From: an uncultured Arenicella sp.
Lineage (GTDB): Bacteria > Pseudomonadota > Gammaproteobacteria > Arenicellales > Arenicellaceae
Length of the DNA stretch: 44,660 bases
Assembly (NCBI GenBank): GCA_937922925.1
Contig: CALAKU010000060.1
Span: 1-44,660 of the forward strand
Reading direction: 5' to 3'
Notes under the pieces: model-generated
Database searches by the model: none
The model's input: the letters and a program-made list of their open reading frames with translations, nothing else
Told to the model about the DNA's origin: nothing
Position numbers and translations under genes: made by a program
Shown: piece by piece, positions 1,301 to 44,477 of the stretch
Layout: the number at the start of each line of letters is the position of its first letter
Numbering within the stretch: position 1 is the stretch's first letter

Positions 1301-1336
1301 TAATAAAAGAAACTGTAATAACAAAAGAAACCGTTT
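1301..1336 (+). repeat. 18-bp tandem duplication in the pepP leader
   Basis: Two adjacent 18-base units (1301-1318 and 1319-1336) of the form TAAYAAAAGAAACYGT plus two bases agree at 14 of 18 positions. The second unit ends directly at the pepP ATG. Each unit supplies a purine-rich AAAAGAAA stretch, the only ribosome-binding-like sequence before the gene. It is one of several junction duplications in the window. Confidence 0.6.
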
Positions 1337-2644
1337 ATGAGCCAGGATGTTTACGCGCGTCGTCGCGCAGATTTAGTCAATCAATTGGGCGATAACGATA
1401 TCGTGATCGTGCCAACGGCACCGATAAAATCACGCAATAGCGATGTCGAATATCTTTTTCGCCCCGACAGCGATTTTTACTATCTATGTGGCTTTGAGGA
1501 GCCAGAGGCAGTATTGGTGATTAGCCCCGGGCGCGAGCAGGGTGAGGTGATTATCTTTTGCCGTGAACGCGACCCATTTAAAGAAATGTGGGATGGTCGC
1601 CGCGCTGGTTTGGAAGGCGCGGTTGAGCGCTTTGGCGCGGATGACGCGTTCCCCATTGACGACATTAACGACATTCTTCCCGGAATGATGGAAGAGAAAG
1701 ACAAAGTCTTTACCACCGTCGGGCGTTATCCCGATTTCGATGCGCAACTACTCAGTTGGGTTAACAAGATTAAAGAAGACTGCAAACGCCGGGGCAAACA
1801 CGCGCCCTATGAATTGGTGGATTTGAATCATCTCTTACACGAGATGCGTTTGTTTAAGCGGCGAGATGAAATCGCCCTGATGCGTAAGGCGGGCAAAATG
1901 TCAGCCCAAGGCCATATTCGGGCGATGCAAGTTTGCCGCCCGGGGATGTTCGAATACCAAGTTCAGGCTGAAATGGAGTGCGAGTTTCGCAAAGCGGGAA
2001 GCCATTACAACGCCTATCCATCGATTGTTGCCGGTGGCGAGAACGCCTGCATTTTGCATTACATCGAGAACAATGCCGAACTCAAAGGCGGCGATTTATT
2101 GCTGATCGATGCCGGCGCAGAATTCGGTTGTTATGCCGCGGACATCAGCCGTACCTTTCCAGTCAATGGCAAGTTCAGCGGCGAGCAAAAAGCCTTATAC
2201 GACATTGTGTTGGCGGCGCAGCTAAAGGCATTTGAAAAATGTCACGCAGGCTGTAGCTGGAACGAACCTCACGATGCTGCCGTAGAAATCATAGCCCAAG
2301 GCCTTTTGGATGAAGGCTTATTGCAAGGCAGCTTGGCCGAGGTTTTAGAAAAGCAGAGCTATACCCAGTTCTATATGCATCGCACTGGTCATTGGCTGGG
2401 GCTGGATGTTCACGATGTTGGTGACTACCAGATTGATGAGTCATGGCGTGAATTGGAGCCAGGTATGGTGTTTACCGTGGAGCCGGGTATTTACGTTAGC
2501 CCGGCGGATTCAGTTGACGCTCGTTGGCACAATATTGGTATTCGAATTGAAGACAATATCTTGATCAGAAAAGAAGGCTATGAAAACCTGACGGAAAATG
2601 CGCCAAAAACCGTTGCTGATATTGAGGCCTTGATGGCCGCCTAA
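1337..2644 (+). CDS. pepP: Xaa-Pro aminopeptidase (AMP_N + M24)
   Basis: A 435-residue cytoplasmic metallopeptidase that removes the N-terminal residue before proline. It has an N-terminal AMP_N domain (about residues 1-140) and a C-terminal pita-bread M24 domain. The five metal ligands are visible: D258 and D269 (in LLIDAGAEFG...ADIS), H352 (HRTGHWLGLDVHDVG), E382 (FTVEPGIYV) and E405 (GIRIEDN). The length matches E. coli PepP (441). It is followed after one base by ubiH, giving the conserved ygfB-pepP-ubiH operon. There is no clear Shine-Dalgarno, only the duplicated purine-rich leader. Confidence 0.96.
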   Translation: MSQDVYARRRADLVNQLGDNDIVIVPTAPIKSRNSDVEYLFRPDSDFYYLCGFEEPEAVLVISPGREQGEVIIFCRERDPFKEMWDGRRAGLEGAVERFGADDAFPIDDINDILPGMMEEKDKVFTTVGRYPDFDAQLLSWVNKIKEDCKRRGKHAPYELVDLNHLLHEMRLFKRRDEIALMRKAGKMSAQGHIRAMQVCRPGMFEYQVQAEMECEFRKAGSHYNAYPSIVAGGENACILHYIENNAELKGGDLLLIDAGAEFGCYAADISRTFPVNGKFSGEQKALYDIVLAAQLKAFEKCHAGCSWNEPHDAAVEIIAQGLLDEGLLQGSLAEVLEKQSYTQFYMHRTGHWLGLDVHDVGDYQIDESWRELEPGMVFTVEPGIYVSPADSVDARWHNIGIRIEDNILIRKEGYENLTENAPKTVADIEALMAA

Positions 2645-2645
2645 C

Positions 2646-3866
2646 ATGTCACAGCAAGCCGACATTATGCAAGCCGATATAGTTCAAGCCGACATAGTTC
2701 AAGCCGACATAGTTATTGTAGGCGCAGGTACATTAGGTGCGGCCTTAGCCTTGCGTTTAGCGCAGGTCACCGATTTTTCAATCAAGGTAATCGAACGCGG
2801 CCCAGCATTGGATGAAGCATCAGACCCAAATCAACGAGTTTTTGCGCTAGGCCAATGCGCCGCAACGTTACTTGAGCAGATAGGCGTGTTCAAGCTGCTT
2901 GGTTCTGAGTCTTGTCATCCTTACCAGTCGATGTGCGTTTGGGATGCAGGATCGGCTGGGCAGCTAAATTTTTCGGCGAGTGAAATCGAGCAAACACAGC
3001 TTGGTTGGATGGTCGATGCACAAAAGCTAACGCGGCTGCTGCAACAAGAGCTGGCTAAAACAGCGCGAATCTCCGTAGTTTATGAGCATGAGCTAACAGA
3101 ATTTAAACGTGCCGCCGACACCGCTAAGGTAAGTAGTCAAACGCTCAGTGTGACGACGCCTCTTGCCATCGCAGCCGACGGCGCCAATTCCTGGTTGCGC
3201 CGCGCGGCGAAGATCTTTTCTAATCGAATGCCCTATGGTCAGGCTGGCATCGTCGCTCGTATTTGTACAAGTGAGCCTCATCAACATTGTGCTTGGCAGC
3301 GCTTTTTAGATACTGGCCCGGTGGCGGTTTTACCTTTAGCGAATGGCGATAGCTCGATTGTATGGAGCGCTGATCAACACTATGCAGATCAGTTAATGGC
3401 ATTATGTGAGACTGATTTTGAAATCGCGCTCAGTAAAGCGCTGGATCAACGTCTTGGCGCGGTGAAGTTGAAGACCCAACGCCAATGCTTTCCGTTGGTT
3501 TCGCAATCGGCTAGCCGATATTACCAAGCCAATGTCGCTCTGATTGGCGACGCCGCGCACAGTATTCATCCCTTGGCGGGGCAGGGGGCTAATCTAGGTT
3601 TCAAAGACATAGAGCTGTTAGCGGCTTTGTTAAGCGAGCATTCAACAGAGCAACTAAGGCAAAGGAGTATGTTGGCATTATTGCAGCGTTATCAGCGAGG
3701 CCGAGAAAAAGACAATCGCCAAACCGACTTATTGATGACGGCGCTCTACCAAACCTACAAGGCGAACAACCCTCTCTGGGCATCCTTGCGCGGTCTGGGC
3801 ATGAGCTTGGTCGATAACACGCCAGTCTTGAGAGAGTTATTAGCACGCCAGGCTATGGGTCTGTGA
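2646..3866 (+). CDS. ubiH: UbiH-family FAD monooxygenase with repeat-extended N-terminus
   Basis: A 406-residue flavin hydroxylase of ubiquinone synthesis (UbiH/UbiF/UbiI family). It has the FAD dinucleotide motif IVIVGAGTLG (residues 23-31), a DG motif (AADGANSWL, about 177) and the family signature GDAAHSIHPLAGQGANLG (301-318). Context after ygfB-pepP favours UbiH, the C6 hydroxylase, over its paralogues. Residues 4-23 consist of four copies of QADI(V/M) encoded by a 15-bp tandem array. The natural start was probably MSQQADIVIVGAG, so about 15 residues look like in-frame repeat growth. Confidence 0.88.
   Translation: MSQQADIMQADIVQADIVQADIVIVGAGTLGAALALRLAQVTDFSIKVIERGPALDEASDPNQRVFALGQCAATLLEQIGVFKLLGSESCHPYQSMCVWDAGSAGQLNFSASEIEQTQLGWMVDAQKLTRLLQQELAKTARISVVYEHELTEFKRAADTAKVSSQTLSVTTPLAIAADGANSWLRRAAKIFSNRMPYGQAGIVARICTSEPHQHCAWQRFLDTGPVAVLPLANGDSSIVWSADQHYADQLMALCETDFEIALSKALDQRLGAVKLKTQRQCFPLVSQSASRYYQANVALIGDAAHSIHPLAGQGANLGFKDIELLAALLSEHSTEQLRQRSMLALLQRYQRGREKDNRQTDLLMTALYQTYKANNPLWASLRGLGMSLVDNTPVLRELLARQAMGL
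2655..2714 (+). repeat. 15-bp coding tandem array, four copies, at ubiH start
   Basis: Four head-to-tail 15-base units (starts 2655, 2670, 2685, 2700) of CAAGCCGACATAGTT. The last two are identical; the first differs at the 3' end and the second by one base. They encode QADIM-QADIV-QADIV-QADIV just before the FAD-binding strand. The period is a multiple of three, so the frame is kept. Confidence 0.95.
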
Positions 3867-3890
3867 TCTGGGGGGCTGTAATCTGGTGGA
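3861..3890 (+). repeat. 15-bp tandem duplication over the ubiH stop codon
   Basis: CTGTGATCTGGGGGG (3861-3875) is followed by CTGTAATCTGGTGGA (3876-3890). The first copy contains the ubiH stop TGA. The pair is imperfect (12 of 15 positions match). Confidence 0.6.
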
Positions 3891-3906
3891 TGCGATCGAG
3901 TTTTAT

Positions 3907-4764
3907 CTAGCGGCCCCAGAACGGCTCTAACAGCTCACTCAAATTTACCGGGTAATCATCCGCTGCCGCGGGGTTTAATCGGTCGCCATTGCTGAAGCGT
4001 TTTAATGCCGGGGTTAAAATGTCGACAGCTTCGCTGGAGCGTAAAAACTGGCTAAGTTTTGCGCTCACTACCTCGGGCTGAGCAACCCATACATAGGGAG
4101 GGTAATTTATGCTTTGTTGCAAGCGAATCAATCGCTCGGGATACTTTTTATTGTAGGCTTGAAACACGTGATTGGTCGTGGCGAAGGCAGCGCACTCTTG
4201 CGGCGTTTCGTTAATGGCTGCTTCTTTTTCTATTAACTTGGCGACATTAGAGAAGGTGCGTGTTCGTGCAGAGTGCAGCGGGTTTGTGAACGCGCCTGAG
4301 ATTAGTAAAAAGTCGAGATTGAGGCCGGGTTGCACGCACACATTGCGACCATTTAAATCGGCCATCTCAAACACAGACAGGTCTCGCCTGCGAGCAGCGA
4401 CCACATAACTGATGTCATCCTCGAGTTTCAAGACGGGAACAAAACTGTGCTGATGTATCGCCCAACTCGCAAAATGCGGGGCGGCTAGATAAATGCCTTT
4501 ACGGCCCATGCGCAGGCCTTGTTGGTATTGATGCCAATAGTCAGTGGTCTGTGCCCGATAGTGTGACAATCCAGCCTGCGCTAAAGCGATATTTAAATCG
4601 CGACTTAGATTTGGGAAATCCTCACCTGATACAGGAATATAAAGCGGTAAAGAGCCCGAAGGTTCTGGGTTACTTTGATCGGCCGCCACTGTACCGCACT
4701 TAAAAATAAGGGCGGTAGAAAAGGCGATTAGTGCAAAATAAGCAAGATGAGAAAGACGGCTCAT
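3907..4764 (-). CDS. PhnD-like periplasmic substrate-binding domain protein
   Basis: A 285-residue secreted protein: residues 1-29 look like a signal peptide (MSRLSHLAYFALIAFSTALI, ending near VAA). The mature part has the layout of the phosphate/phosphonate PhnD-like periplasmic-binding fold: an early YIPVSGEDFPNLSRDLN, a central VVAARRRDLSVFEMADLNGRNVC (a 'loop then conserved G' hinge region) and an ECAAFATTNHVFQAY segment. No ABC permease or ATPase lies beside it, so it may be an orphan sensor or scavenging component. The assignment rests on fold-like features only, and the ligand cannot be named. It is divergent from fur. Confidence 0.55.
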   Translation of the reverse strand: MSRLSHLAYFALIAFSTALIFKCGTVAADQSNPEPSGSLPLYIPVSGEDFPNLSRDLNIALAQAGLSHYRAQTTDYWHQYQQGLRMGRKGIYLAAPHFASWAIHQHSFVPVLKLEDDISYVVAARRRDLSVFEMADLNGRNVCVQPGLNLDFLLISGAFTNPLHSARTRTFSNVAKLIEKEAAINETPQECAAFATTNHVFQAYNKKYPERLIRLQQSINYPPYVWVAQPEVVSAKLSQFLRSSEAVDILTPALKRFSNGDRLNPAAADDYPVNLSELLEPFWGR

Positions 4765-4890
4765 AATAAAAAGTGTGATCGGGGCTCTAGGGACTATACA
4801 GATCTGTGTTTAAAAGCCAAAATTTGCCGATGGATAAGGCTCAAAAACTGTTAAAATACACGGCCCGTAATAACGCACCTGCAAAATCTA

Positions 4891-5307
4891 ATGGCGAGTA
4901 GCAAAGACTTAAAAGACGCTGGGCTTAAAACCACCTTGCCTCGACTTAGAATTTTGTCGATTCTCAGCGAAAGCGAAGAACGTCACTTTACTGCCGAGGA
5001 TGTGTACAAAGCGCTGTTGGATGCGGGCGAAGAAATTGCGTTTGCGACGGTTTATCGTGTCTTAACGCAATTTGAAAATGCCGGCTTGGTCTTGCGGCAC
5101 AATTTTGAAGGTGGCCGAGCTGTTTTTGAAATCGATGACGGCAAACATCATGATCACATGGTGTGCGTCAAGTGCAACACGGTGACCGAGTTTTACGATG
5201 CCGAAATCGAAGAACGCCAGCACAGAGTTGCCGAAGAGTATGATTTTGAACTGCAAGATCACTCTTTGTATCTGTACGGGATTTGCGCTAATTGTCGGAA
5301 CGCATAA
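4891..5307 (+). CDS. fur: Ferric uptake regulator Fur
   Basis: A 138-residue iron-responsive repressor. The N-terminal winged helix includes LKTTLPRLRILSIL and the recognition helix FATVYRVLTQFENAGLV (about 51-67). The metal and dimer domain shows HHDHMVCVKC (residues 86-95) and a C-terminal CANC, giving two CXXC pairs (C92/C95 and C132/C135) as in structural-zinc Fur proteins. Its 3' end overlaps the convergent iron permease gene by 20 bases. A matching Fur box lies before the iron-transport operon at 8049-8069, so Fur sits beside its likely target. Confidence 0.96.
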   Translation: MASSKDLKDAGLKTTLPRLRILSILSESEERHFTAEDVYKALLDAGEEIAFATVYRVLTQFENAGLVLRHNFEGGRAVFEIDDGKHHDHMVCVKCNTVTEFYDAEIEERQHRVAEEYDFELQDHSLYLYGICANCRNA

Positions 5308-6937
5308 ATCGAGTTAGTAATATCACAGGGATCAAGCCTGCTGCAACAATCGCCAGTGATGGCAGCGCTGCATCGGCGAGTCTTTCATCGCCAGCGAGTT
5401 CATAGGCCCGCACTGCAAGAGTGTCGAAATTAAAAGGCCGCAGCACTAAGGTCGCTGGCAGCTCCTTCATCACGTCGACAAACACGAGAATAAAGCCGGT
5501 TAAAATGCTATTGCGTAACAACGGCATATGCACTCGTCGAATCACACCAAACGAATTTTCCCCGAGTGAGCGAGCAGACTGTTCCATGCTTGGATGAATA
5601 CGGGCCAAACCGGCTTCGGCGTTGTTAACACCTAAGGCTAGAAATCGCGCTATATAGGCGACGACTAAGGCCACAAGACTGCCGCTAAGGAGTAAGCCTG
5701 TTGAGGTATTCAAATGGAGTCTTGCCCATGCATCAAGCTGGTTATCAAACCAAGCTAACGGTATGAGTACGCCGACGGCGATTACCAAACCGGGTATGGC
5801 GTAGCCTAGGCTCGAAATAGATCGGCACAGTCGAGTAAACCGATTGGGAGAAAATCGAGCGGCGTAGCTTATCAATAGAGCCAGAGCAAGTGTGATACCG
5901 GCGGTGATGCCTGCCAGGCTCAAGGTGTTGCTAAGCAGCTCCCAAAATCGAGCCTGCCAAATCCCATCGATACGCTGTACAGCCCAGAAAAGCAATTGTG
6001 CCATGGGCACCACAAAACCTAATACGAGTGGAATGCAGGTAAGCGCCATGGCTAGCCATTGACGCCAACCATGGAGGGTAATTCGATTGTCCTCGCGACT
6101 CGGCGACTGAGAAAAATAGGCAGCTCGTCGCCGAGCGGCTTTTTCCAGAATCATCAACAGAACAACGAGGCTTAGCAGCATCAGCGACAATTGCGCAGCT
6201 GATTCCACACTGTCTAAACCAAACCAGGTTCGAAAAATGCCAGTGGTAAAAGTGCTAAGGCCAAAATAGCTCACGGCTCCGTAGTCGGCTAAGGTCTCCA
6301 TAATGACTAAAGCCAAGCCTGCGACAATGGCTGGGCGCGCGAGAGGAATGCTGACACGAAAGAAAAACTGGCGTCGATTCGCGCCACTGCTGGCAGCGGC
6401 GTAAGACAGGTTTACCGATTGTTCGCTTAAGGCTGTGCGCGCTAAGAGATACACGTAGGGGTAAAGAACACAGCCCAGTACGAAAATGGCACCGGGCAAA
6501 GAGCGGATGGCCGGGAACCAATAGTCGCCTACTTGCCAACCAAACACAGCGCGAAGTTGTGATTGAATTGGCCCGCTGACATCCAATAAACCGGTATAAG
6601 AATAGGCGGTAATGTAGGCCGGGCTAGCCAGTGGCAAGAGTAAGGCCCAGCTTAAAATGCTTGCGCCGATGAAGCGAAATTGACTGATCGCAATAGCGCT
6701 GGCAACTCCTAAAACGAGGCTTAGAATTGCAACCCCAATCACCAAGATCGCCGTAGTCGATACGTAGTCAGCGAGTACCGTAGTGCGAAGATGCTGCCAA
6801 ATCTGTGGATCGGCTGAGAGGCTTAGTTTGAGTAAGGTAAGTATCGGCAGCACCACGAGCAAGGCCACCAGTAAAGCGCACGCAGGCCATATCAAGCGGG
6901 ATGCGTCGACACGCAGCGGTAACATGATCGGAGCCAT
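5288..6937 (-). CDS. fbpB: Fe(III) ABC transporter permease, fused two-domain FbpB type
   Basis: A 549-residue inner-membrane protein with about twelve hydrophobic helices and two homologous permease halves. This is the fused layout of FbpB/SfuB/FutB ferric permeases. EAA-like loops for the ATPase are visible in each half (near YAAASSGANRRQFFFRVSIPLARPAIVAG and, in the second half, ARSLGENSFGVIRRVHMPLLRNS). It starts 20 bases after the stop of the binding-protein gene. No ATPase gene (fbpC) follows; instead the 3' end runs 20 bases into convergent fur. The partner ATPase must be encoded elsewhere. Confidence 0.92.
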   Translation of the reverse strand: MAPIMLPLRVDASRLIWPACALLVALLVVLPILTLLKLSLSADPQIWQHLRTTVLADYVSTTAILVIGVAILSLVLGVASAIAISQFRFIGASILSWALLLPLASPAYITAYSYTGLLDVSGPIQSQLRAVFGWQVGDYWFPAIRSLPGAIFVLGCVLYPYVYLLARTALSEQSVNLSYAAASSGANRRQFFFRVSIPLARPAIVAGLALVIMETLADYGAVSYFGLSTFTTGIFRTWFGLDSVESAAQLSLMLLSLVVLLMILEKAARRRAAYFSQSPSREDNRITLHGWRQWLAMALTCIPLVLGFVVPMAQLLFWAVQRIDGIWQARFWELLSNTLSLAGITAGITLALALLISYAARFSPNRFTRLCRSISSLGYAIPGLVIAVGVLIPLAWFDNQLDAWARLHLNTSTGLLLSGSLVALVVAYIARFLALGVNNAEAGLARIHPSMEQSARSLGENSFGVIRRVHMPLLRNSILTGFILVFVDVMKELPATLVLRPFNFDTLAVRAYELAGDERLADAALPSLAIVAAGLIPVILLTRFMRSDN

Positions 6938-6957
6938 CGATACGGAGCGGCTTCGGT

Positions 6958-7998
6958 TTACTTCCAGCCTGCTTGATCCATCAATTTGAGAGCCTCTGCA
7001 TTTTTCTCCCCAAGAATATTCAGCGCAATGGTATCGGCTTTAAATTCTCCAAAACCGGTTAACACCGGATGCAGTTCAATGCCGGCGATAACCGGATATT
7101 CAAAATTGCGTTCAGCGTAAATTTGCTGTGCTGAATCGGAGGCCAAAAACTCGATCAGCTTGATCGCATTCTCAGGGTTTGGCGCATTTGTTAAGACCCC
7201 CGCGCCGCTGATATTTACGTGGGTACCACGCCCGCTTTGATTTGGCCAAACGATGCGTATTTTGCTGGCTGCGGCGAAATCATCGGTCTCGGGATCGTCG
7301 CCCAAAAGCCGTGCCAAATAATAAGAATTTGCCACTGCGATTGAGCAGGCTCCCGCGGCCGCGGCTCTTATTTGATCGGTGTCTCCGCCTTGTGGAGATC
7401 GAGCGAGATTCGCAACCAAGCCTTTGGCCCACTCTAGCGTTGCTTGCTCCCCGGAATGGTGTAGCAAAGATGCCGTAAGCGATTGATTGTAGATATTACT
7501 CGATGAGCGTATGCAAATTTGGCCTTGATATGCTGGGTCTGCCAAGGCTTCGTAAGAGTCAATTGAGATTGTGTTCGCCGGATCATTAAGCAAAATCAAA
7601 CGTGCACGCAAGGAGAGCCCAAACCATTGCTGGTCTGGATCGCGATAGCGCGCGGGGATTCTATTAAGCTCACTCGAATTGATCGCTTTAAGCACACCTG
7701 CTGCTTTGGCTCGGTGTAATCGGCCCGCGTCGGTTGTTAGTAGCACATCGGCTGGGCTGTTCGCGCCCTCCGATTGGATGCGGCTTAACAAAGCGTCGGC
7801 TTTACCGCTAATCAAATTTACTTTGATTCCTGTCTGTTGAGTAAACTCGTTGAGCAAAGGAGCCATTAGCGCTTCCTTGCGTGCAGAATAAATATTTACC
7901 TCGCCGGCGGACGCTGTGCCGTCTCGCTGAGCGCCCTGCGGGTCAGCCTGACAGGCCGCAAGGCTAAGCAGTAATACAAAAAAGGCCGCGCGTTTCAT
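6958..7998 (-). CDS. fbpA: Fe(III) ABC transporter substrate-binding lipoprotein, FbpA/FutA type
   Basis: A 346-residue periplasmic iron-binding protein. The chosen ATG (MKRAAFF) is preceded by AGGTG at six bases; a GTG nine bases upstream is less likely. Residues 1-16 form a lipoprotein signal with lipobox LAAC (C16), so it is probably anchored to a membrane. Expected iron-ligand tyrosines are present: Y37 in VNIYSARK and the YY pair at 226-227 in NSYYLARLLG. It is first in a two-gene operon with the fused permease, and a Fur box 50 bases upstream indicates iron repression. Confidence 0.92.
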   Translation of the reverse strand: MKRAAFFVLLLSLAACQADPQGAQRDGTASAGEVNIYSARKEALMAPLLNEFTQQTGIKVNLISGKADALLSRIQSEGANSPADVLLTTDAGRLHRAKAAGVLKAINSSELNRIPARYRDPDQQWFGLSLRARLILLNDPANTISIDSYEALADPAYQGQICIRSSSNIYNQSLTASLLHHSGEQATLEWAKGLVANLARSPQGGDTDQIRAAAAGACSIAVANSYYLARLLGDDPETDDFAAASKIRIVWPNQSGRGTHVNISGAGVLTNAPNPENAIKLIEFLASDSAQQIYAERNFEYPVIAGIELHPVLTGFGEFKADTIALNILGEKNAEALKLMDQAGWK

Positions 7999-8048
7999 TA
8001 GGGACACCTATGGTTAAAGCTGAGATCGAAACTCAATTAGTAAAATGT

Positions 8049-8069
8049 AAATGAGAACCGTTCGCATTT
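8049..8069 (-). promoter_or_regulatory. Fur box upstream of fbpAB
   Basis: Two ten-base arms, AAATGAGAAC and GTTCGCATTT, flank one central C. Nine of ten arm positions are complementary. This is the GAGAAT-N-ATTCTC type of Fur box. It lies about 50 bases before the fbpA ATG on the minus strand and about 150 bases before gcvH on the plus strand, so fbpA is the probable target. Confidence 0.85.
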
Positions 8070-8217
8070 TCAGGAAAGTCGTAAAGGATTGCAAGATAAT
8101 TGTTCAATACAAACAAAAAAAGAGGCTGCATTCACTATAATACGCGTGTTTTGACAAAACCAAATTCCAATTCACGAAGGTCAAAGCGATCAATGTCTGC
8201 AATAAGAGGATAAAACG

Positions 8218-8604: not shown

Positions 8605-8650
8605 TTCTAAAAGTCTAAAAAAACTCGAAGTGGAAGAATTAGAAATAACG

Positions 8651-8709
8651 AAAGCTCTAAAAACCAAAGCTTTAACAACAAAAGACTAATTAGCAAAGCA
8701 TGAAAAACA
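8651..8709 (+). repeat. Degenerate 15-bp AAAG-led repeats before the kinase gene
   Basis: AAAG-led units begin at 8651, 8666, 8681 and 8695, and the last contains the ATG of the kinase gene. Beyond the AAAG lead the match is loose. I report it because the same spacing class recurs at other junctions; alone it could be chance in A-rich DNA. Confidence 0.3.
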
Positions 8710-9638: not shown

Positions 9639-9684
9639 CGCTTGCCTAGAGACGTCGTTGTTTAACGCTGCGCTAAAGTAAGTC

Positions 9685-12800: not shown

Positions 12801-12850
12801 TTAAATCTCTAACAGCTTAAATCTCTAACCACTTAGAGTTACTTAGAGAA
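12801..12850. repeat. Tandem repeats in the convergent lnt / GspC-like gap
   Basis: Two 16-base units, TTAAATCTCTAACAGC and TTAAATCTCTAACCAC (12801-12832), are followed by two ten-base units, ACTTAGAGTT and ACTTAGAGAA (12831-12850). TCTCTAA and TTAGAGA are complementary, so the gap can also form a hairpin. It lies where two convergent genes end and may act as a weak bidirectional terminator. Confidence 0.5.
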
Positions 12851-14170: not shown

Positions 14171-14223
14171 CGTTCTGATTAACATCGGGGGGGGTAGAGT
14201 GCTCAACTTAGATGGATCGAAAG

Positions 14224-14255
14224 CAATTAGGACTCAAAACAACTAGGACTCAAAG
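14224..14255 (-). repeat. 16-bp tandem duplication over the mgtE stop codon
   Basis: Two adjacent plus-strand units, CAATTAGGACTCAAAA (14224-14239) and CAACTAGGACTCAAAG (14240-14255), differ at two positions. The mgtE stop (minus strand TGA, 14250-14252) lies inside the second unit; the first repeats it downstream. Confidence 0.75.
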
Positions 14256-15590
14256 CAAAATCAGCGTGGCCAAACCTAAGACCGAAAAGTAGCCGACCAC
14301 ATCGGTGACGGTGGTCAGCGCTACGCCACCGGCTAACGCTGGGTCGATATTCATTCGCTCAAGAAAAATTGGGATGCACACGCCGGCAATCGCGCCCATG
14401 ACCAGATTGGCGATCATGGCGGCAGCTATAACTAAGCCCAAGATAATGTCTTGATACCATAGCCCAGCGATAATGGAGATTGCCGCGGCCCAAATCAGGC
14501 CATTTAGAACACCGACCATTGATTCTTTTTTAAGCACATTAAGCATGTTGCCACGGGAGATCGTGCCCAAGCTCATACCGCGAATAACCACCGTCAGTGT
14601 TTGTGTTCCGGCGTTACCGCCCATGCTGGCGACAATCGGCATCAGGACTGCTAGCGCCACCAACCGTTGAATAGAACCTTCAAATTGGCCAATAACCCAT
14701 GAGCCCAATAGCGCGGTCAACAAATTAACGGCTAACCAAATAGTACGATCGCCCGTTGTTTTGGTGACTGGTGCAAAGATATCCTCTTCTTCTTTTAGGC
14801 CTGCTGCGGCCATGATGTCGTGTTCGGCTTGTTCCCGAATTACGTCAACCACGTCGTCGATGGTAATACGACCCACGAGCTTTTGATTTTCATCAACTAC
14901 GGGTGCAGAAATCAAGTCGTAATCGGTAAAGGCTTTTGCGACTTGTTCTTCATCGTCTAAGATTTGAAAAATCACGGGGCTCTCAACCATGTGGCCGCGA
15001 GCTTGGTCGCCGCCACGCTGGGTAATGATTCGATCTAAAGGCAAAATCCCAGTCAGTTGATTGGCTCGGTTCACCAAATAGACGGTGTCGGTATGTTCTG
15101 GCAACTCGGTTTTTAGACGCAGATAATGCAAGACCACATCAAGTGATATGTTGTCGCGCACTGTGATGAAATCCAAATCCATCAAGCCGCCGGCGCTGTC
15201 TTCGGGGTAACTTAGTACCTCGCCAAGATTGGCTCGGGTTTCCGTGTCGACCGCGAATAAGACATCGGCCAACAGCGACTCGGGTAAATCAGGTATCAAG
15301 TCAGCGATGTCATCCGTGTCGAGCACTTTAATGGCATTGACTAGATCTCTGTTGTCGAGCTCCTCGGCAAGGTTGCGAAATACGCCTTCGTTGAGCTCAC
15401 TTAGAACTTCGCCTTTAGCATCCTTGGGGATGTGCAACCAAGCGGCAGGGCGTTTTTCTGGCGTAAGCCTCTCTAGCGCATCGGCAATATCAGCGGGATG
15501 CGCTTCTGCAAACATCGCTGCCACAGCATCGTCGTTACCGGTATCGAGTAACTCAACGACGTTAGTGATAGGAGACAGCGGTGTTTGCAT
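14250..15590 (-). CDS. mgtE: Magnesium transporter MgtE
   Basis: A 446-residue Mg2+ channel/transporter. It has the cytoplasmic MgtE N domain of helical repeats (about 1-120, with HPADIADALERL), a CBS pair (about 125-250) and a five-helix membrane domain (about 275-446) with the conserved GGNAGTQTLTVVIRG and ALAGGVALTTVTDVVGYFSVLGLA segments. The cytoplasmic domains sense Mg2+ and gate the pore. It is followed by no close gene on its strand; its 5' leader holds a 14-base palindrome. Confidence 0.95.
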   Translation of the reverse strand: MQTPLSPITNVVELLDTGNDDAVAAMFAEAHPADIADALERLTPEKRPAAWLHIPKDAKGEVLSELNEGVFRNLAEELDNRDLVNAIKVLDTDDIADLIPDLPESLLADVLFAVDTETRANLGEVLSYPEDSAGGLMDLDFITVRDNISLDVVLHYLRLKTELPEHTDTVYLVNRANQLTGILPLDRIITQRGGDQARGHMVESPVIFQILDDEEQVAKAFTDYDLISAPVVDENQKLVGRITIDDVVDVIREQAEHDIMAAAGLKEEEDIFAPVTKTTGDRTIWLAVNLLTALLGSWVIGQFEGSIQRLVALAVLMPIVASMGGNAGTQTLTVVIRGMSLGTISRGNMLNVLKKESMVGVLNGLIWAAAISIIAGLWYQDIILGLVIAAAMIANLVMGAIAGVCIPIFLERMNIDPALAGGVALTTVTDVVGYFSVLGLATLILL

Positions 15591-32542: not shown

Positions 32543-32615
32543 GTGAACGTTAATAGAAGAAAGTCGTGAACGTTAATAGAAGAAAGCCATGAACGTTAAT
32601 AAAAGAAAGCCATGA
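32543..32615 (+). repeat. Four 23-bp repeats forming three stop-start mini-ORFs before hisD
   Basis: A unit with a start codon recurs at 32543 (GTG), 32566 (GTG), 32589 (ATG) and 32612 (the hisD ATG). The 23-base period shifts the frame each time. The first three starts each open eight codons: (M)NVNRRKS, (M)NVNRRKP and (M)NVNKRKP. Each ends in TGA that overlaps the next start (GTGA, ATGA, ATGA). GGGAG six bases before the first GTG is the best ribosome-binding site; later units have only AGAAAG. This is visible directly; its effect on translation is inferred. Confidence 0.93.
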
Positions 32616-33916
32616 ACGTTGATATCAAACGTCTAAACAGCGCGCACGACTCCTTTGATGCTGACCTTGCGAGTCTGTTAAACCGTCAGCAAGCCAGCGA
32701 CCAAGATGTTGAGCAAACCGTTGCCGAAGTGCTTGGCCATGTTGCGCGTAACGGCGATAGAGCACTCTATCATTACACTCAGCAATTCGATGGTTTTGAT
32801 GCTGAGGCGCGCGGTCTGGAAGTTCGTCAAGATCGCCTAAATCTGGCGCTTGAAAATATCTCGCCCAAAGATCGTGAAGCCTTAGAGTTCGCCGTCGAGC
32901 GAGTGCGCGAGTATCACCAGCATCAAATGCAAGAGTCGTGGCAATACGAAGAAGCCGATGGCACCATTTTGGGCCAGAAAATCACGCCGCTACAACGCGC
33001 TGGCCTATATGTCCCAGGCGGTAAAGCCACTTATCCCTCATCGGTTATCATGATTGCCGTCGCGGCCAAGGTGGCCGGCGTACCAGAGTTAATCATGACC
33101 TCGCCAACACCAAACGGCGAATTCAACGATATGGTACTGGCGGCGGCAAAGCTATCTGGTGTCGACCGTGTATTCCGCGTTGGAGGTGCTCAAGCCATTG
33201 GAGCAATGGCCTATGGCACCGAGACAATCCCTAAGGTCGATAAGATCGCTGGGCCCGGCAATATTTATGTGGCTACGGCCAAACGCCAAGTGTTTGGCCG
33301 AGTTGGCATCGACATGATTGCCGGGCCTTCAGAGGTTTTAGTGGTTGCCGATGACTCGGTTGAACCCGACTGGATTGCCATGGATTTGTTCGCGCAGGCC
33401 GAGCACGATGAGTTGGCGCAATCGATCTTGCTCACCAACAGTGAGCTGTTGGCCGAGCGCGTGCAGCAATCTATCGATCGCTTATTATCCACTATGGAGC
33501 GCGCCGATATAATTCGGGCTGCGTTAAAAGATCATGGCGCTATTATTGTTACCCAGACCCGTCAACAGTTGATTGATGTCGCCGATAAAATCGCCGCAGA
33601 GCATTTGGAGATATTCACTGAAGACGCTGAGGCGCTCGCGCACGAGATCAGCCATGCTGGTGCGATGTTTATTGGCCCATACAGCTCTGAATCTTTAGGC
33701 GATTATTGCGCTGGCCCGAACCATGTTTTACCGACGGCCGGGACAGCACGATTTAGTTCGCCATTAGGCGTTTACGACTTTCAAAAACGCAGCAGCATCA
33801 TTAAGGTTTCCGAGCAAGGCGCACAAGAGATGGGCAAACGCGCATCCATTCTCGCTCGTGGAGAATCACTCACTGCCCACGCGCGCGCAGCTGAATACCG
33901 ACTCAAGGACGACTGA
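32612..33916 (+). CDS. hisD: Histidinol dehydrogenase
   Basis: A 434-residue zinc enzyme for the last two steps of histidine synthesis. Conserved blocks are [71 protein letters not shown] and [23 protein letters not shown]. The start is the fourth in a series of duplicated start sites and is in a different frame from the three before it. hisC, common next, is replaced by a GMC oxidoreductase gene. Confidence 0.97.
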
Positions 33917-35535: not shown

Positions 35536-35588
35536 GTTATTATTTTTTAGGTAACCGCTGGCGATCAAGCTAGTTTCTGAGTCAGTCT

Positions 35589-35935
35589 GAATCCGCGGCT
35601 AAGCCGCTGACAATTCATTCTGAACCCGCCACTAAGTCGCTGATAAGTCATTCTGAGCTTGATTCAGAATCTTCTAAGCTTTCGTGCGGTTTCCGGCCCA
35701 ATAGGTTCTGACTTTCGTCAGAATGACTTTTTTTGGCTAGCTCGTTCTAAGCCCTGAAATAAGATATTTCGAACCCACCATTAAGTTGCTACCAAGTCAT
35801 TCTGGCCCCGCCACTAGGTTGGTGATAAGTCATTCTGAACTTGATTCAGAATCTTCTTAGCCTTTGTACGGTTTCCGGCTCAATAGATTCTGACTTCCGT
35901 CAGAATGACTTTTGGGCTAGCTCATCCTAAGTACC
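35589..35935. repeat. Two direct copies of a 182-bp-period palindromic repeat
   Basis: Copy A (from about 35589) and copy B (from 35771) are similar over about 165 bases. Each holds AAGTCATTCTGA (35645 and 35827) and its reverse complement TCAGAATGACTT (35718 and 35900), 73 bases apart. Each half is itself a small hairpin. The right hairpin of copy A ends in seven T's, so it could terminate the GMC gene transcript. Inverted copies of the same hairpins occur at 38729-38877. This fills most of the gap between the GMC and surface-protein genes. Confidence 0.9.
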
Positions 35936-37512: not shown

Positions 37513-37650
37513 TTTTTTTTTGCCTTTTCGTCCTACAGTTGATCTGAATTTTTGCTGATCTATTTTTCTGCTGGTCTAGTACGGTGATCACCTACGAGTC
37601 GGATTCTAGTTTAAATCAGTTTTTGTCCTAAATCGACTGGTTGTTGGAGG

Positions 37651-38664: not shown

Positions 38665-38728
38665 AAGTGTCGTTGTGTTTGCGAAAATAGAGAGTAGTTC
38701 TGACCACGCCTGCGGGTAAGTATAGATA

Positions 38729-38877
38729 GATTCTGAATCAAGTTCAGAATGACTTAGGTTGTGGTGTCTGCCTTGAGAACGGAGTCATTCTTGATTCCAA
38801 AAGAAGTCATTCTGGATTCTAAAACAAAGCCATTCTGGATTCCAAAACGAAGTCATTCTGACGAAAGTCAGAATCCA
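38729..38877. repeat. Inverted copy of the palindromic repeat with 22-23 bp tandem units
   Basis: Positions 38729-38755 are the exact reverse complement of 35827-35853. The hairpin at 38852-38876 is the reverse complement of that in copy A. Between them, four GTCATTCTGGATTCC-like units start at 38784, 38806, 38829 and 38852 (period 22-23). The right end reaches the stop codon of the homocysteine methyltransferase gene, whose TAG lies in the shared GAGCTAGC edge. Confidence 0.88.
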
Positions 38878-38878
38878 G

Positions 38879-39754
38879 CTAGCTCGCGTACCGTCTTACT
38901 AGTTCCTTGATGTGCGCAGGGCCCACTTCGCAGCAACCGCCGATTAGGCTTGCGCCATGGTCGATCCATTGTTGAGCAAAGTCAGCGTACTTTTGTGGGT
39001 TCAAGTCTTGTCTTGCTTCGAGTGAAGAGACGGTTCCTTTGAGTTCTTTGAACTCATCACTAATTTTCGTAAAGCCATTGGCGTAAGCGCCGAACGGAAT
39101 GTCGATGGCACTGATGTGTGCAATTGCGGTGGTGATGGCCTCAGGGATCGAGCAATTAAATAATAGGGCATCTACTGGCTCGCGTACTAGCATCTCAAGC
39201 AAATCGCTTATGGGTTCACCAGACCGAAGTTTGCTGCCGTCTTGGTCATCAACGGTGACGGATAGCCAGACCGGCTTGCCATTGGTTTTAGCGCCTTTCG
39301 CTGCACCTTCTGCTTGATCAACCGAGGCTAAGGTTTCAAGTAGATAGAAATCAACAAACGGCGCTTGTAGCGCGGTGACTTCGGCAAACAGTTCGGCACT
39401 TTGTTCAACGTTCTTTGCCAGATCAGGGCGATACGATTTGCCGTTGGGGCCAATGCCGCCGGCCACTAAACCAGAGCCGAACTTATCGCGTGCGCGACAG
39501 GCAATTTCACAAGCGGTAATATTTAAAGATTCGAAAAGATGCTCGGCGTCATTTTGTGCTAGCCGGTCTCGATGCAAAATATAACTATTGGTAGTAGCGA
39601 TTTGTGCTCCGGCATTAAAGTAATCCATGTGTACCGCTTCAACTAAATGTGGTTCGTCGCGCATGGTAATCGCCGACCAGAGTGGCTGAGGGTCGGCTTT
39701 TGAGCGCGCCATTAATTCTTGGCCAAGGCCTCCGTCGAGAATAGTAATGGTCAT
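38879..39754 (-). CDS. Homocysteine S-methyltransferase
   Basis: A 291-residue TIM-barrel enzyme that methylates homocysteine (MmuM/BHMT family). MTITILDGGLGQEL is the conserved start. The three zinc cysteines are C201 (FNCS) and C274/C275 (IGGCCEVGP). ATG at 39754 overlaps the stop of lpxO (TAATG); a longer reading upstream would run into that gene. Methyl donor unknown (S-methylmethionine or a betaine-type compound). Its stop codon lies in the edge of a repeat element. Confidence 0.9.
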   Translation of the reverse strand: MTITILDGGLGQELMARSKADPQPLWSAITMRDEPHLVEAVHMDYFNAGAQIATTNSYILHRDRLAQNDAEHLFESLNITACEIACRARDKFGSGLVAGGIGPNGKSYRPDLAKNVEQSAELFAEVTALQAPFVDFYLLETLASVDQAEGAAKGAKTNGKPVWLSVTVDDQDGSKLRSGEPISDLLEMLVREPVDALLFNCSIPEAITTAIAHISAIDIPFGAYANGFTKISDEFKELKGTVSSLEARQDLNPQKYADFAQQWIDHGASLIGGCCEVGPAHIKELVRRYAS

Positions 39755-40719
39755 TAGAACAACCAGAACAAGAAATTGAGCACGCCCCATACAAGCAGAG
39801 CCAGCAACACGAAAAGAGTTGTGTTAACGGTATATTTAAGCGCTTTGTAGGCGGGTAGATTGGTCTCTTTTAGACCTTTGGCTTTTTCTAAAATTGGCAC
39901 TAAGGAGCTAAAGGTGCGATTCGCAAAACCGCGTTTATCCTCATCGGTATTTGGCACAACTGTAGCTCGCATTAACCATTTATACGGCGCATTGAGGATG
40001 CGGCCTACAATAGACATCGGCCGTTCAATGTCGCACATTAAAATCAAGCGTGATTTATCCGCGTCGTTATGTGCGAAATGTAAAAAGGTCACATCAAACA
40101 AGAGCGGCTCGCCATCGCGCCATGAATACTTTTGATCGTCTACCGAGATATAACAGCGATCATCGTTTGGAGTATCCAAGCCTAAGTGATAACGCAGCGA
40201 GCATGCGACTGGGTCTAAATGCCTGGTTAACTGGCCGCCCGGCGGTAATACCGAGAACATGGCTCCGTTAACTTGTGGAATTTTGCTCAATAGCTCGATG
40301 GTTTTTGGACAGCTCCGTTTGGCCGATTCATGTGTGTAGCCATACCAGTTTAAGTAAAATTTGGTCCAGCCATATTTATAGAACGTGCGAAAGCCGATGT
40401 CGTAGTAGGAGGCGGAATCTTTGTCGGTGATTTTTTCAAAGCCGCCATCAGCCATTAAGTCGATGGCTTCTTCACGAATCATTTCCCAGTTGTCGGCCAG
40501 CTCTTTAAGCTCGGGAAACTCTGCCATATTCATAATCGCGGGGCGAGCCTTGCGTTCAGTGAACAAATACAACAGGCAGTTGAACGGCGTAAAAATGGGC
40601 CAGCCTTTACGCACGTACTCGCCAAAGCCACTCCATCGCGCTTGCCCACGAAACGCATACGCGTAGGTCAGTGACCCTGCGCAAAATAGCCCAATGGCAA
40701 TCATTATTAAGGTGCTCAT
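39754..40719 (-). CDS. lpxO: Lipid A 2-hydroxylase, LpxO type
   Basis: A 321-residue membrane-associated Fe(II)/2-oxoglutarate dioxygenase of the aspartyl/asparaginyl hydroxylase family. It has an N-terminal transmembrane helix (1-22), then IFTPFNCLLYLFT, FPELKELADNWEMIREEA, RHLDPVACSLRYHLGL and FDVTFLHFAHN, and a C-terminal helix. The iron ligands are H167, D169 and H214. These blocks match Salmonella LpxO, which 2-hydroxylates lipid A myristate. It overlaps the methyltransferase gene, which has no obvious functional link. Confidence 0.87.
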   Translation of the reverse strand: MSTLIMIAIGLFCAGSLTYAYAFRGQARWSGFGEYVRKGWPIFTPFNCLLYLFTERKARPAIMNMAEFPELKELADNWEMIREEAIDLMADGGFEKITDKDSASYYDIGFRTFYKYGWTKFYLNWYGYTHESAKRSCPKTIELLSKIPQVNGAMFSVLPPGGQLTRHLDPVACSLRYHLGLDTPNDDRCYISVDDQKYSWRDGEPLLFDVTFLHFAHNDADKSRLILMCDIERPMSIVGRILNAPYKWLMRATVVPNTDEDKRGFANRTFSSLVPILEKAKGLKETNLPAYKALKYTVNTTLFVLLALLVWGVLNFLFWLF

Positions 40720-40867
40720 AGCGAACTCGTCAGCAATTACTCTGAGCGCAATATAGCGTAATTCTGGATGTGACCCCAGTGTAAACCATGAGATTTTAAA
40801 CCGGTGATTGATGACTTATCGTGGCCTTGATAGGCTTAGCACAAAGATCACGCCCAAGTAGAAAATC

Positions 40868-41521
40868 ATGCGAATCCCTCTTAACTTTGAAGAGCTAAGC
40901 GAAGCCGATATGCTGGCCGAGTCTGAACGTTTTTATCACACGGCGGCTCGTCGTCGAAGCGTGCGAGCGTTTTCAAACCGGCCCGTGGATCGACGAGTGA
41001 TTGAAAATGCGATTCGCGCTGCGGGTTCGGCGCCAAGTGGTGCCAATAAGCAGCCGTGGCACTTTGCGGTGATTGAAAGCCCTGAAGTTAAGGCGCAAGT
41101 AAGGCATGCCGCCGAGCAAGAGGAGCATGAATTTTATCATCGTCGCGCACCGCAAGCTTGGCTGGACGATTTGAAAGTCTTTGATACCGATGAACACAAG
41201 CCGTTTTTAGAAACAGCGCCCTACTTAATCGCAGTGTTCTTACAACGCAATACAGTGGACGAGACGGGCAAGACTCATAAGAACTATTACATGCCCGAAT
41301 CCGTTGGCATTGCGACTGGCATGTTAATTTCGGCCTTACATTTTTCAGGCTTAGCAACGTTAACGCACACGCCCAGCCCGATGAAGTTTTTGTCTGAGAT
41401 TTGCCAGCGCCCGGCCAACGAAAAAGCGTATATGTTAATTGTTGCGGGATACCCCGAAGAGGGCGTCACTGTACCCGATATCACTCGCAAATCCTTAAGC
41501 GAAATTATGTCGTGCTTCTAA
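40868..41521 (+). CDS. Iodotyrosine deiodinase (IYD) homologue, nitroreductase fold
   Basis: A 217-residue flavin enzyme. FMN-binding features include RRRSVRAFSNRPVD and GSAPSGANKQPWHFAVIE. The substrate-lid residues known from mammalian IYD are all kept in spacing: E86, Y90 and K111 (EEHEFYHRR...DEHKPFLETAPYLI), where they hold the amino acid part of a halotyrosine. The end GYPEEGVTVPDITRKSLSEIM also matches IYD. It likely removes halogen from mono- or dihalotyrosine. It is convergent with the carboxyltransferase gene (four-base overlap). Confidence 0.88.
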   Translation: MRIPLNFEELSEADMLAESERFYHTAARRRSVRAFSNRPVDRRVIENAIRAAGSAPSGANKQPWHFAVIESPEVKAQVRHAAEQEEHEFYHRRAPQAWLDDLKVFDTDEHKPFLETAPYLIAVFLQRNTVDETGKTHKNYYMPESVGIATGMLISALHFSGLATLTHTPSPMKFLSEICQRPANEKAYMLIVAGYPEEGVTVPDITRKSLSEIMSCF

Positions 41522-43275
41522 GCGTTAGTGTTTGCCAGTAAATCACTTAAGCGCTGCCGGGTTTCGGCTGGCTCGATCACTGCATCGACCTCTAAGACGC
41601 TTGCGACCTCGGTGGCTTGGCCACGTTCGTATAGTTGTTCCAGCAATTCATCAAAGAGTCTTTGGCGCGCTGCATGATCGGTGGCCGCTTCGAGTTCTTT
41701 ACTAAAACCCAATTTTACTGCGCCCTCCAAGCCCATTGGGCCAAATTCGCCACTAGGCCAAGCCAACGTCGCGTCCGGTCTAGAGGTGGAACCGCCAAGA
41801 AGGGCTTGAGCACCTAGGCCATAGCACTTACGTAACACCACGGCATAGAGCGGAATACGCATTTGCGCGCCGATGCGAAACATCTCGGCAAGCCGTCTTA
41901 CCGCTCCGAGTTCCTCGTGCTGTGGCCCCACCATGAATCCCGGTGTATCGCATAAAGCCACCATGGGTATGGCGAATTGATCGCATAAACTCATAAATGA
42001 GGAGGCTTTTTCTCCGGCAGGCACATCGATGGCGCCGCCTAAGACCATGCAATCGCTGGCGAGCAAGCCAAAGCGATGGCCATTGATGCGGGCAAATCCT
42101 GTGACAAGGCTGCCGCCATAATCTTTTTTTAGTTCAAGAAAAGAATTGGTGTCGCAGAGAATATTAATAATCTCTCGAACGGAATAGGTTTGGCGTCGAT
42201 TCGCCGGCATGCTTTGATTTAGTTCAGATTGATCATCGCTGTCGACATGGCGTATGTGCTTGTGAGTAAAAAAGTGCAGTAACTTGAGTGCTGCCTTGGC
42301 CGCTTCTTGTTCATCAGCGACGACCACGTCGACCGTGCCATTGTGCGATTGCACATCAATTGGGCCGATGTCTTTAGGCGCAAAAATGCCAAGTCCACCG
42401 CCTTCGATCATGGCTGGGCCTGCCATGCCGATGTACGAGTCTTGCGTTGCGATGGTGATGTCGGCTGCGCCAAATAAAGCGGCATTGCCTGCGAAGTTGT
42501 AGCCGTGGGCGACTGAAATGCGCGGCACGATCCCAGATAAGCCCGCCCACGCCCCGAACGAAGTGCATTGCAAGCCAGAGTTAACAACGCTAACGTCAGT
42601 GTCACCAGGGCGGCCGCCTCCGCCCTCGGTGTACATGATTATTGGCAGCTCGCGTCGTTTGGCGATCTCAAGCATCCGATCAATTTTTTGATGATGGAAA
42701 AAGCCCTGCGTACCGGCCAGCACGGTGTAGTCATTGATGATCAGCGCTACGGCATTGCCGTTGATCTGGGCAATGCCGGTGATTACACCATCGGCGGCTG
42801 TCGCTGTCTTTAGCTCATCATAGTCGCGACGTCGACGTTGAGCGGCCACCGCCAATTGACCGTATTCTTGAAAGCTCGCCCTATCACACAATAAAGCGAG
42901 ATTTTCTCGAGCGGTTAAGCCGCCACGATGATGTCGTTTTGATACAGCGTTTGGGCGTGATGAGTCGAGGCTCAAATTTACGCGCTCTTGAAAACTATCG
43001 ATCAAGGGATGTGGCGCTTTCTGTGTGTTTTGCGGCGCGGCGACTGTAGTTTCGCTCGACTGTTTGATTTGAATTAGTGGGCTGCCACGCTCGACTTGTT
43101 GATCGCAGACAATATTAAGGTCGATGACCTCACCGGCGCATTCCGCTTCGACTCGAACTTGTACCTTCATGGATTCGAGCGTGGCCAGTAGCTCGCCCAC
43201 CTCGACCTGTTGGCCGAGCTCTACGCAAACTTCCAAGACTCGCCCGGCTAAAGGCGCGGTAACTATGGTGGTCAT
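41518..43275 (-). CDS. Biotinyl-carboxyltransferase fusion, acyl-CoA carboxylase type
   Basis: A 585-residue protein. Residues 1-68 are a biotinyl domain with the biotin lysine K37 in ATLESMKVQV. After a linker (about 70-100) a full carboxyltransferase follows: RGGLTARENLALLCD, the oxyanion region TEGGGGRPGD, the second crotonase half LVTGFARINGHRFGLLASD and MVALCDTPGFMVGPQHE. It would move CO2 from biotin to an acyl-CoA. Biotin carboxylase is not in the window. The start overlaps the PQQ dehydrogenase stop (ATGA). Confidence 0.88.
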   Translation of the reverse strand: MTTIVTAPLAGRVLEVCVELGQQVEVGELLATLESMKVQVRVEAECAGEVIDLNIVCDQQVERGSPLIQIKQSSETTVAAPQNTQKAPHPLIDSFQERVNLSLDSSRPNAVSKRHHRGGLTARENLALLCDRASFQEYGQLAVAAQRRRRDYDELKTATAADGVITGIAQINGNAVALIINDYTVLAGTQGFFHHQKIDRMLEIAKRRELPIIMYTEGGGGRPGDTDVSVVNSGLQCTSFGAWAGLSGIVPRISVAHGYNFAGNAALFGAADITIATQDSYIGMAGPAMIEGGGLGIFAPKDIGPIDVQSHNGTVDVVVADEQEAAKAALKLLHFFTHKHIRHVDSDDQSELNQSMPANRRQTYSVREIINILCDTNSFLELKKDYGGSLVTGFARINGHRFGLLASDCMVLGGAIDVPAGEKASSFMSLCDQFAIPMVALCDTPGFMVGPQHEELGAVRRLAEMFRIGAQMRIPLYAVVLRKCYGLGAQALLGGSTSRPDATLAWPSGEFGPMGLEGAVKLGFSKELEAATDHAARQRLFDELLEQLYERGQATEVASVLEVDAVIEPAETRQRLSDLLANTNA

Positions 43276-44477
43276 TCTGGTGCGTTAGATGAACTAACTT
43301 TATTCGATGGGCTCTCTTTGGGCAGCTGAATAAGCTCGGCATTGTGTCCGTCGGTCAACACGTATAAATGCCCATCTGGCCCGCTGGCGATATCGCGCAA
43401 TCGCTCATCCACTTCCGGGAATACCGGGCCGTGGTCAATCAGGTGGCTGTCATCGATTTGAATTTTTCGAACTCGGCCTTCAACAAGCGAGGTGACATAA
43501 AGGTCGCCTTCGTGAAAGGCCATTGACGATGGTGCAATAGACGGCGTCCAGTCAATTCCTGGTTGCTCCATGCCCTCGTATTCTTGATAAGGCGTTATTT
43601 GCGCACCATTGTAGTCGATGCCTTGAGTAATCACCGGCCAGCCATAATTGTTGCCAGGCGTGAGACGGTTCACCTCGTCACCACCTTTTGGCCCGTGTTC
43701 ATTCTCGTATACGTGCTGGCCAGCCAAAGCCAAGCCTTGTTGATTGCGGTGCCCGTAGCTCCATATCTCTGGCAGGGCATCATTGCGATCATAAAAAGGA
43801 TTGTCGTCTGGCACCGTGCCATCGTTATTGATGCGAATGACTTTGCCAAAATGATTGTCCAGCGTTTGCGCTTGCTCGCGAAAATCAAAGCCGTCGCCAA
43901 CAGTTGCCAATAAGGTGCCGTCAGCGAGTTGCAATAAACGCCCAGCATAGTGGTGGCTGGTATCTTTCAACGGTTGTGCGGTAAACAAGATTTGCTGTTC
44001 GCGCAATTGCATTCCATCTAATTTGGCCGACATGATGCGCAAGGCATTGGCACCGCGCTCGCCCCAAGCATAGCTTAGATAAAGCCGTTGATTGGTAGCA
44101 AAATCACGATCGATCATGACATCCAAAAGCCCGCCTTGGCCCGCATAGAAAACGTCTGGAATGCCGGAAATATCGGCGCCCATTAGCGCTCCATTTTGAA
44201 TTACTCGAAGCTTGCCCTTGCGCTCGGTAACAAGAATGTCGCCATTAGGCAGAAAGTCAAAAGCCCAAGGAGAGTCTAGGCCTTTGGCGATTGTTTTTGA
44301 TACCGGTGGAGCTGGGCTCAGTGACGTTTGAGCAAAAACACAATGACTAAACGCTGAGGCTAGAACCAAAATAAATCTAGTCGGAACCGAAAAGAAGTTA
44401 ATGGGAACCGAAAAGAGGTTAATGGGAACCGAAAAGAGGTTAATGGGAACCGAAAAGAGGTTAGAGAGTTGTCGCAT
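43272..44477 (-). CDS. PQQ-dependent aldose sugar dehydrogenase (YliI-like) with repeat-extended signal peptide
   Basis: A 401-residue periplasmic beta-propeller. Typical blocks are GLDSPWAFDFLPNGDILVTERKGKLRVI, DTSHHYAGRLLQLADGTLLATVGD, RNQQGLALAG and GPKGGDEVNRLTPGNNYGWPVIT. It oxidises sugars with PQQ. ATG at 44477 gives a signal peptide; a GTG-type start at 44549 would overlap the upstream gene by 89 bases. Residues 6-33 are four copies of N-(L/F)-F-S-V-P-(I/T) from a 21-bp tandem array, placed before the hydrophobic core FILVLASAFSHCVFA. Confidence 0.88.
   Translation of the reverse strand: MRQLSNLFSVPINLFSVPINLFSVPINFFSVPTRFILVLASAFSHCVFAQTSLSPAPPVSKTIAKGLDSPWAFDFLPNGDILVTERKGKLRVIQNGALMGADISGIPDVFYAGQGGLLDVMIDRDFATNQRLYLSYAWGERGANALRIMSAKLDGMQLREQQILFTAQPLKDTSHHYAGRLLQLADGTLLATVGDGFDFREQAQTLDNHFGKVIRINNDGTVPDDNPFYDRNDALPEIWSYGHRNQQGLALAGQHVYENEHGPKGGDEVNRLTPGNNYGWPVITQGIDYNGAQITPYQEYEGMEQPGIDWTPSIAPSSMAFHEGDLYVTSLVEGRVRKIQIDDSHLIDHGPVFPEVDERLRDIASGPDGHLYVLTDGHNAELIQLPKESPSNKVSSSNAPE
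44383..44466 (-). repeat. 21-bp coding tandem array, four copies
   Basis: Four 21-base units start at 44383, 44404, 44425 and 44446. The middle two are identical, one base differs in the first, and the last diverges at its end. They encode the N-L-F-S-V-P-I repeats in the signal peptide. The last unit also contains the stop codon (TAA, 44461-44463) of the upstream gene, so the array lies exactly on the gene junction. Confidence 0.95.

Follow-up and report, generated by a model that had tools for sequence, protein, structure and literature searches.

Short tandem duplications in an uncultured Arenicella genome lie mainly in non-coding DNA, without preference for gene starts and stops

Bacterial minisatellite-type tandem repeats, or VNTR loci, arise by slipped-strand mispairing. 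The tandem arrays of the uncultured Arenicella sp. described here are like these loci in their unit length, in their copy number (2-7), in their intergenic or in-frame location and in having mutually unrelated units, and they are unlike them in being several times as dense as the arrays of most congeners. Among the systems compared, the closest described case is the Borg repeats. In the portion of the Borg account that was considered (PMC9879509), the tandem repeats are pervasive and independently formed, virtually all units are unique, and the repeats are found between genes or in ORFs, with unit lengths divisible by three in ORFs and mostly not divisible by three between genes. Borg repeats were counted there only if they were perfect and had at least three units and at least 50 nt, and they are A-rich (48.4 percent A). 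Set against that portion, the Arenicella arrays also have unique units, keep the frame in ORFs and are free of it intergenically, whereas they mostly have fewer than three copies, are imperfect and belong to a bacterial chromosome bin. The A enrichment of the Borg type was not found, as the arrays have 31.0 percent A compared to 28.5 percent in non-coding DNA, counted on the contig plus strand rather than the gene strand and without a significance test. A second case is known from marine Beggiatoaceae, where the part of the account considered describes TAACTGA direct repeats with one fixed 7-base unit (PMC4679880). The Beggiatoaceae and the Arenicella genome are alike in having many short direct repeats between the genes of a gammaproteobacterium, but a single 7-base unit is repeated in the Beggiatoaceae and the units are unrelated here. 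For Arenicella, such repeats were described in no publication among the matches listed, which are a small share of the total and do not prove absence.

The window, a stretch of 44,660 nucleotides, is contig C60 of a draft genome of 2,692,836 bases in 104 contigs that is 87.6 percent complete. Arrays were counted with TRF at a period of at least 10 and a score of at least 50, with a score of at least 40 as a second threshold. Eight arrays were found in the window at the first threshold, compared to a mean of 0.15 and a maximum of 1 in 20 dinucleotide shuffles, and 12 at the second, compared to a mean of 1.05 and a maximum of 2. The head-to-tail copies of a unit of ~10-60 bp, which are of minisatellite type, exceed chance. 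All seven arrays listed in that annotation are present in the sequence and six are also reported by TRF; in the degenerate pair at pepP, 16 of 23 compared bases over 1299-1339 are identical. The list was selective, since it named six of the 12 window arrays (score of at least 40) and favoured gene edges. Its gene names are supported by Pfam for pepP, lnt, the GspC-like gene, mgtE, hisD and the dehydrogenase, while ubiH encodes a FAD_binding_3 monooxygenase, an assignment that does not fix the exact name. The arrays are collected in Table 1.

Table 1. Tandem arrays of the window, with their location and source.
Array	Coordinates	Strand	Location	Remark
degenerate 18-bp pair	1299..1334 (approx.)		directly upstream of pepP start (1337)	unreported by TRF at score 30
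15 bp x4.0	2655..2714	+	in frame, N-terminus of UbiH-like protein, QADIV repeats	reported by TRF
15 bp x2.0	3857..3886		across ubiH stop codon (gene end 3866)	reported by TRF
15 bp x2.5	8647..8684		short gap ahead of PfkB-family gene	not in initial annotation
16 bp x2.2	12801..12835		gap between lnt and T2SSC (GspC-like) gene	reported by TRF
16 bp x2.4	14220..14258		across mgtE stop codon (minus-strand gene 14250-15590)	reported by TRF
array	22239		within gene, 74 bp before gene end	not in initial annotation
array	27075		275 bp away from a gene	not in initial annotation
23 bp x3.5	32544..32624	+	hisG-hisD gap, hisD start codon copied	reported by TRF
array	35580		intergenic, built from dispersed palindromic repeat	not in initial annotation
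16 bp x2.4	37540..37578		intergenic, short gap	not in initial annotation
array	38778		intergenic, built from dispersed palindromic repeat	not in initial annotation
21 bp x3.9	44383..44463	-	start of GSDH-family (PQQ-type) dehydrogenase, in frame, NLFSVPI repeats	reported by TRF

The two in-frame arrays are peptide repeats added to protein N-termini. The QADIV repeats stand ahead of the FAD-binding motif of the UbiH-like protein, and the NLFSVPI repeats precede a hydrophobic, signal-peptide-like stretch of the dehydrogenase. Each 23-bp copy ahead of hisD (32543-32614) forms an 8-codon mini-ORF (GTG or ATG, then AAC GTT AAT and further codons) whose TGA overlaps the start of the next copy by four bases (GTGA or ATGA), and the series ends at the hisD ATG at 32612. 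Judged from this arrangement, translational coupling across the mini-ORF copies of the hisG-hisD gap is conceivable.

The units of the arrays are mostly unrelated to one another. Only 26 of 2,556 unit pairs share at least nine bases, compared to 8 in one shuffle, and apart from a few shared families nearly all units are unique. This agrees with the remark in the initial annotation that the units differ and that no single mobile repeat accounts for them, as most unit pairs share no more than shuffled ones. An origin of the arrays from a single family of mobile or dispersed repeats is scarcely credible: the excess of 26 over 8 pairs and the palindromic GTCATTCTGA-type repeat common to the window arrays at 35580 and 38778 fit such an origin, but the similarity of most pairs is that of shuffled units, and the arrays that had been listed initially do not group together at nine bases. 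A single mobile repeat was rejected as the source because the units are mostly unrelated. The dispersed palindromic repeat (GTCATTCTGA...TCAGAATGAC) is found at 35580-35656, 35700-35740, 35820-35920 and 38720-38880, and it presumably resembles the dRS3-like repeats of Neisseria. In 652 kb of the source genome, 12 copies of its 10-base core or of the complement are found (11 non-coding), compared to three in 200 kb of G015 and none in G013. Additionally, array units at L015 10272-10517, L089 9420-11020 and L006 15166-15207 share AAGCGAG/GCGAGCGCC-like words and, on the basis of these words, may form a small dispersed family. Longer 20-bp arrays stand at contig ends (L077 4-230, L078 4-438, L079 18015-18161) and probably mark assembly breaks; the units of L077 and L078 look similar to each other and are on opposite strands.

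For the distribution of arrays along the genome, a sample of 651,702 bases (~652 kb) was used that consists of the window together with at most the initial 20 kb from each of contigs C1-C40, a non-random draw. Gene starts were taken from a simple home-made coding-potential caller. When the caller was checked on E. coli, 19 of 20 first calls were identical to the annotation and secM, yacG and yacM were missed; this check was run at a threshold of 10, which was afterwards lowered to 6. The genes of congener G008 were called with a pooled model. The sample contains 72 arrays (score of at least 50, no end mask), and masking 300 bp at the ends of each stretch removes four non-coding and two coding arrays.

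The arrays avoid coding DNA, and those within it keep the reading frame. In the source genome, 23 of 24 coding arrays have a period that is a multiple of three, compared to 10 of 42 non-coding ones; at a score of at least 40, these counts are 42 of 48 and 19 of 65. Coding arrays are not clearly biased in frame in G008, where the corresponding counts are 4 of 6 and 5 of 14, and 8 of 13 and 6 of 18 at the lower threshold. Most non-coding arrays of the source genome have periods of 12-17 bp (28 of 42, and 48 of 65 at a score of at least 40), and 28 of the 42 have fewer than three copies, in a range from 2 to a maximum of 6.7. The copies within arrays have diverged to varied degrees.

The initial annotation had suggested that placement at start and stop codons is non-random. 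This was not borne out. Without an end mask and at a score of at least 50, gene interiors have 4.4 arrays per 100 kb, and the outer 60 bp of coding DNA next to a start or stop have 5.7. In non-coding DNA, the density is 64.4 up to 60 bp from a codon and 56.8 at greater distances. A density near codons no higher than in random intergenic DNA is the outcome that the annotation itself had named as contradicting its claim. When arrays were compared to 1,000 random placements across non-coding bases with 300-bp end masks, 22 of the 42 non-coding arrays of the source genome were no more than 60 bp from a start or stop codon, where 21.2 are expected, and 12 spanned such a codon (10.6 expected, p 0.36). 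At a score of at least 40, 34 of 65 lay within 60 bp (32.8 expected) and 17 spanned either codon (14.1 expected). Coding arrays are near gene edges as often as expected by chance, with 3 of 24 at the first threshold, where 3.0 are expected, and 6 of 48 at the second, where 6.0 are expected. The impression that gene edges are favoured arises from the compactness of this genome, in which about half of all non-coding bases are no more than 60 bp away from a start or stop codon. The observations do not support start and stop codons as special sites for arrays, and repeats can seem to be targeted to gene starts and stops through compact gene spacing combined with selection.

A process directed specifically at start and stop codons, for example one tied to the boundaries of translation or transcription, would explain why six of the eight window arrays (score of at least 50) are found no further than 60 bp from the end of a gene, as counted by overlap with the edge class. 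It would also agree with stop codons being spanned slightly more often than expected: 9 arrays compared to 5.5 (p 0.089) in the source genome, 4 compared to 2.0 (p 0.13) in G008 and, at a score of at least 40 in the source genome, 12 compared to 7.3 with a nominal p of 0.045, reached at one of two thresholds and uncorrected for several tests. Binomial P values assume independent arrays. Start codons, however, are spanned less often than expected (3 compared to 6.1, and 5 compared to 8.0 at a score of at least 40), there is no excess within 60 bp, and coding edges are like gene interiors. Such a process is very unlikely and already largely refuted; arrays may lean weakly towards stop codons.

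The arrays are probably best explained by tandem duplication of the slippage type, at a rate that depends on the lineage and filtered by purifying selection. Short stretches, mostly of 12-17 bp and some of 20-25 bp, would occasionally be duplicated in tandem, either as replication slips or in a comparable local event, and some duplications would then grow to 3-7 copies through further slippage. Duplications within genes would be purged unless they keep the reading frame, so that the survivors gather in non-coding DNA and as in-frame protein repeats. A duplication over a stop codon would be nearly harmless because the first stop stays in place, while one over a start codon would change the translation leader, and this would account for the slight lean towards stops. 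Of the earlier suggestion that slippage or a repair process is limited to gene edges by selection, we retain slippage-like duplication limited by selection and not the confinement to gene edges. No system beyond duplication and purifying selection need be assumed, and nothing indicates a function for most arrays. Four observations run counter to this account. One is the nominal excess of arrays over stop codons in the source genome, given above. The coding arrays of G008 have in-frame periods in 4 of 6 cases and are near an edge in 3 of 6 (0.7 expected; 3 of 13 with 1.6 expected at a score of at least 40), although these numbers are small. Classic slippage predicts repeats or homology at the duplication ends, but the match extends at most two bases past the duplication in 22 of 32 non-coding pairs with a period of 12-30, in a weak test since the allowed mismatches shorten the measure. 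Finally, core genes whose loss would raise slippage are present in the source genome.

Arrays are more abundant in two genomes of the genus than in the others. The non-coding density (score of at least 50) is 60.5 per 100 kb in the source genome (42 arrays in 69,447 bases; bootstrap over stretches 39-82), 64.4 in G008 (14 in 21,736; 33-98) and 16.9 in the 16 other congeners pooled (23 in 136,353; 11-24). The window had been picked for its arrays, and without it the source genome still has 36 arrays in 64,856 non-coding bases. The non-coding segments of the source genome hold 38 arrays compared to 0-1 in ten shuffles. The congener samples are uneven, with 1,360 to 34,133 non-coding bases each, and individual counts include 2 in 3,166 bases (G003), 5 in 14,536 (G012), 3 in 8,801 (G014) and several of zero. 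Without an end mask, non-coding counts in a comparison set are 1 in 32,951 bases for G019, 3 in 30,854 for G024 and 0 in 29,067 for E. coli. Coding density differs less than non-coding density (24 arrays in 557,655 bases of the source genome compared to 27 in 977,958 over 17 congeners, P 0.075). The arrays are of an ordinary kind and their amount is moderately unusual, and the high density in the two genomes may be due to a raised duplication rate or to weaker selection. The genus, whose species differ several-fold in array density, offers a usable comparison for studying how the rate of short tandem duplication is set in bacteria.

An assembly or amplification artefact of the metagenome bin is most improbable as the cause of the arrays. 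The draft is fragmented into many contigs and incomplete, and some arrays are at contig ends, but the copies carry substitutions, coding arrays stay in frame and the excess persists when the outer 300 bp at both ends of every stretch are masked.

It is possible but rather unlikely that this lineage owes a raised rate of 12-25 bp tandem duplication to a mutator-like defect, or else to some special polymerase or nuclease. The difference in density between the two array-rich genomes and the 16 congeners is consistent with such a defect, as is a size spectrum that hardly exceeds simulation at 9-11 bp: with 10 percent mismatch permitted, a scan gave none at 9 bp, five at 10-11 bp (near simulation) and 30 of 44 at 12-20 bp. 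The 8-bp class, however, is likewise above simulation (6 in the same scan), and relaxed selection or population size could produce the same picture. Self-similarity below the array threshold also argues against a defect of this lineage. In autocorrelation without a threshold, the source genome has an excess of 9, 9, 12 and 10 per thousand at 12, 14, 15 and 20 bases, and the pooled congeners have 9, 7, 6 and 5 per thousand at 12-15 bases; over periods 12-15 the ranges are 4-12 and 5-9 per thousand. Since the same signal is found in congeners and masking the TRF arrays scarcely altered it in the source genome, autocorrelation does not single this genome out.

The repair genes point the same way. 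MutS, MutL, RecJ and XseA genes are present in the source genome with scores above the family cut-offs, which are calls of presence and not of function. Loss of mismatch repair or RecJ was rejected as the cause given that MutS, MutL and RecJ genes are present, and loss of ExoVII given that XseA is. Duplications made by NHEJ were rejected because Ku was found in none of the 18 genus genomes, the source genome being 87.6 percent complete. The ExoI C-terminal domain was found in only one of the 18 and, being absent from 17 of 18 congeners, does not distinguish the source genome. A bolder version is improbable, in which 12-25 bp tandem duplications would arise in the non-coding chromosomal DNA of at least two Arenicella lineages by a process that is raised and specific to the lineage, with little end homology and with mismatch-repair, RecJ and XseA genes intact. 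This process would be the bacterial equivalent of the formation of Borg repeats, with an undescribed enzyme behind it. Slippage-type duplication under purifying selection is preferred to both.

The same loci were compared in congeners. Matches to the UbiH-like protein begin inside the array in all 17 congeners, at residues 12-20 (18-20 in 15 of 17), and no array was found at any of the 17 ubiH starts examined. At the hisD start, 15 loci in 13 other genomes gave a single TRF array, a different one of 17 bp in G012. The ubiH and hisD arrays, absent or different at the same sites of congeners, thus arose separately. For the dehydrogenase, the best match starts past the array, at residue 33 or beyond, in 14 of 17 congeners, and at residues 10-23 in G001, G009 and G011. 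Taken over the three loci, these comparisons indicate that the arrays are local and lineage-specific.
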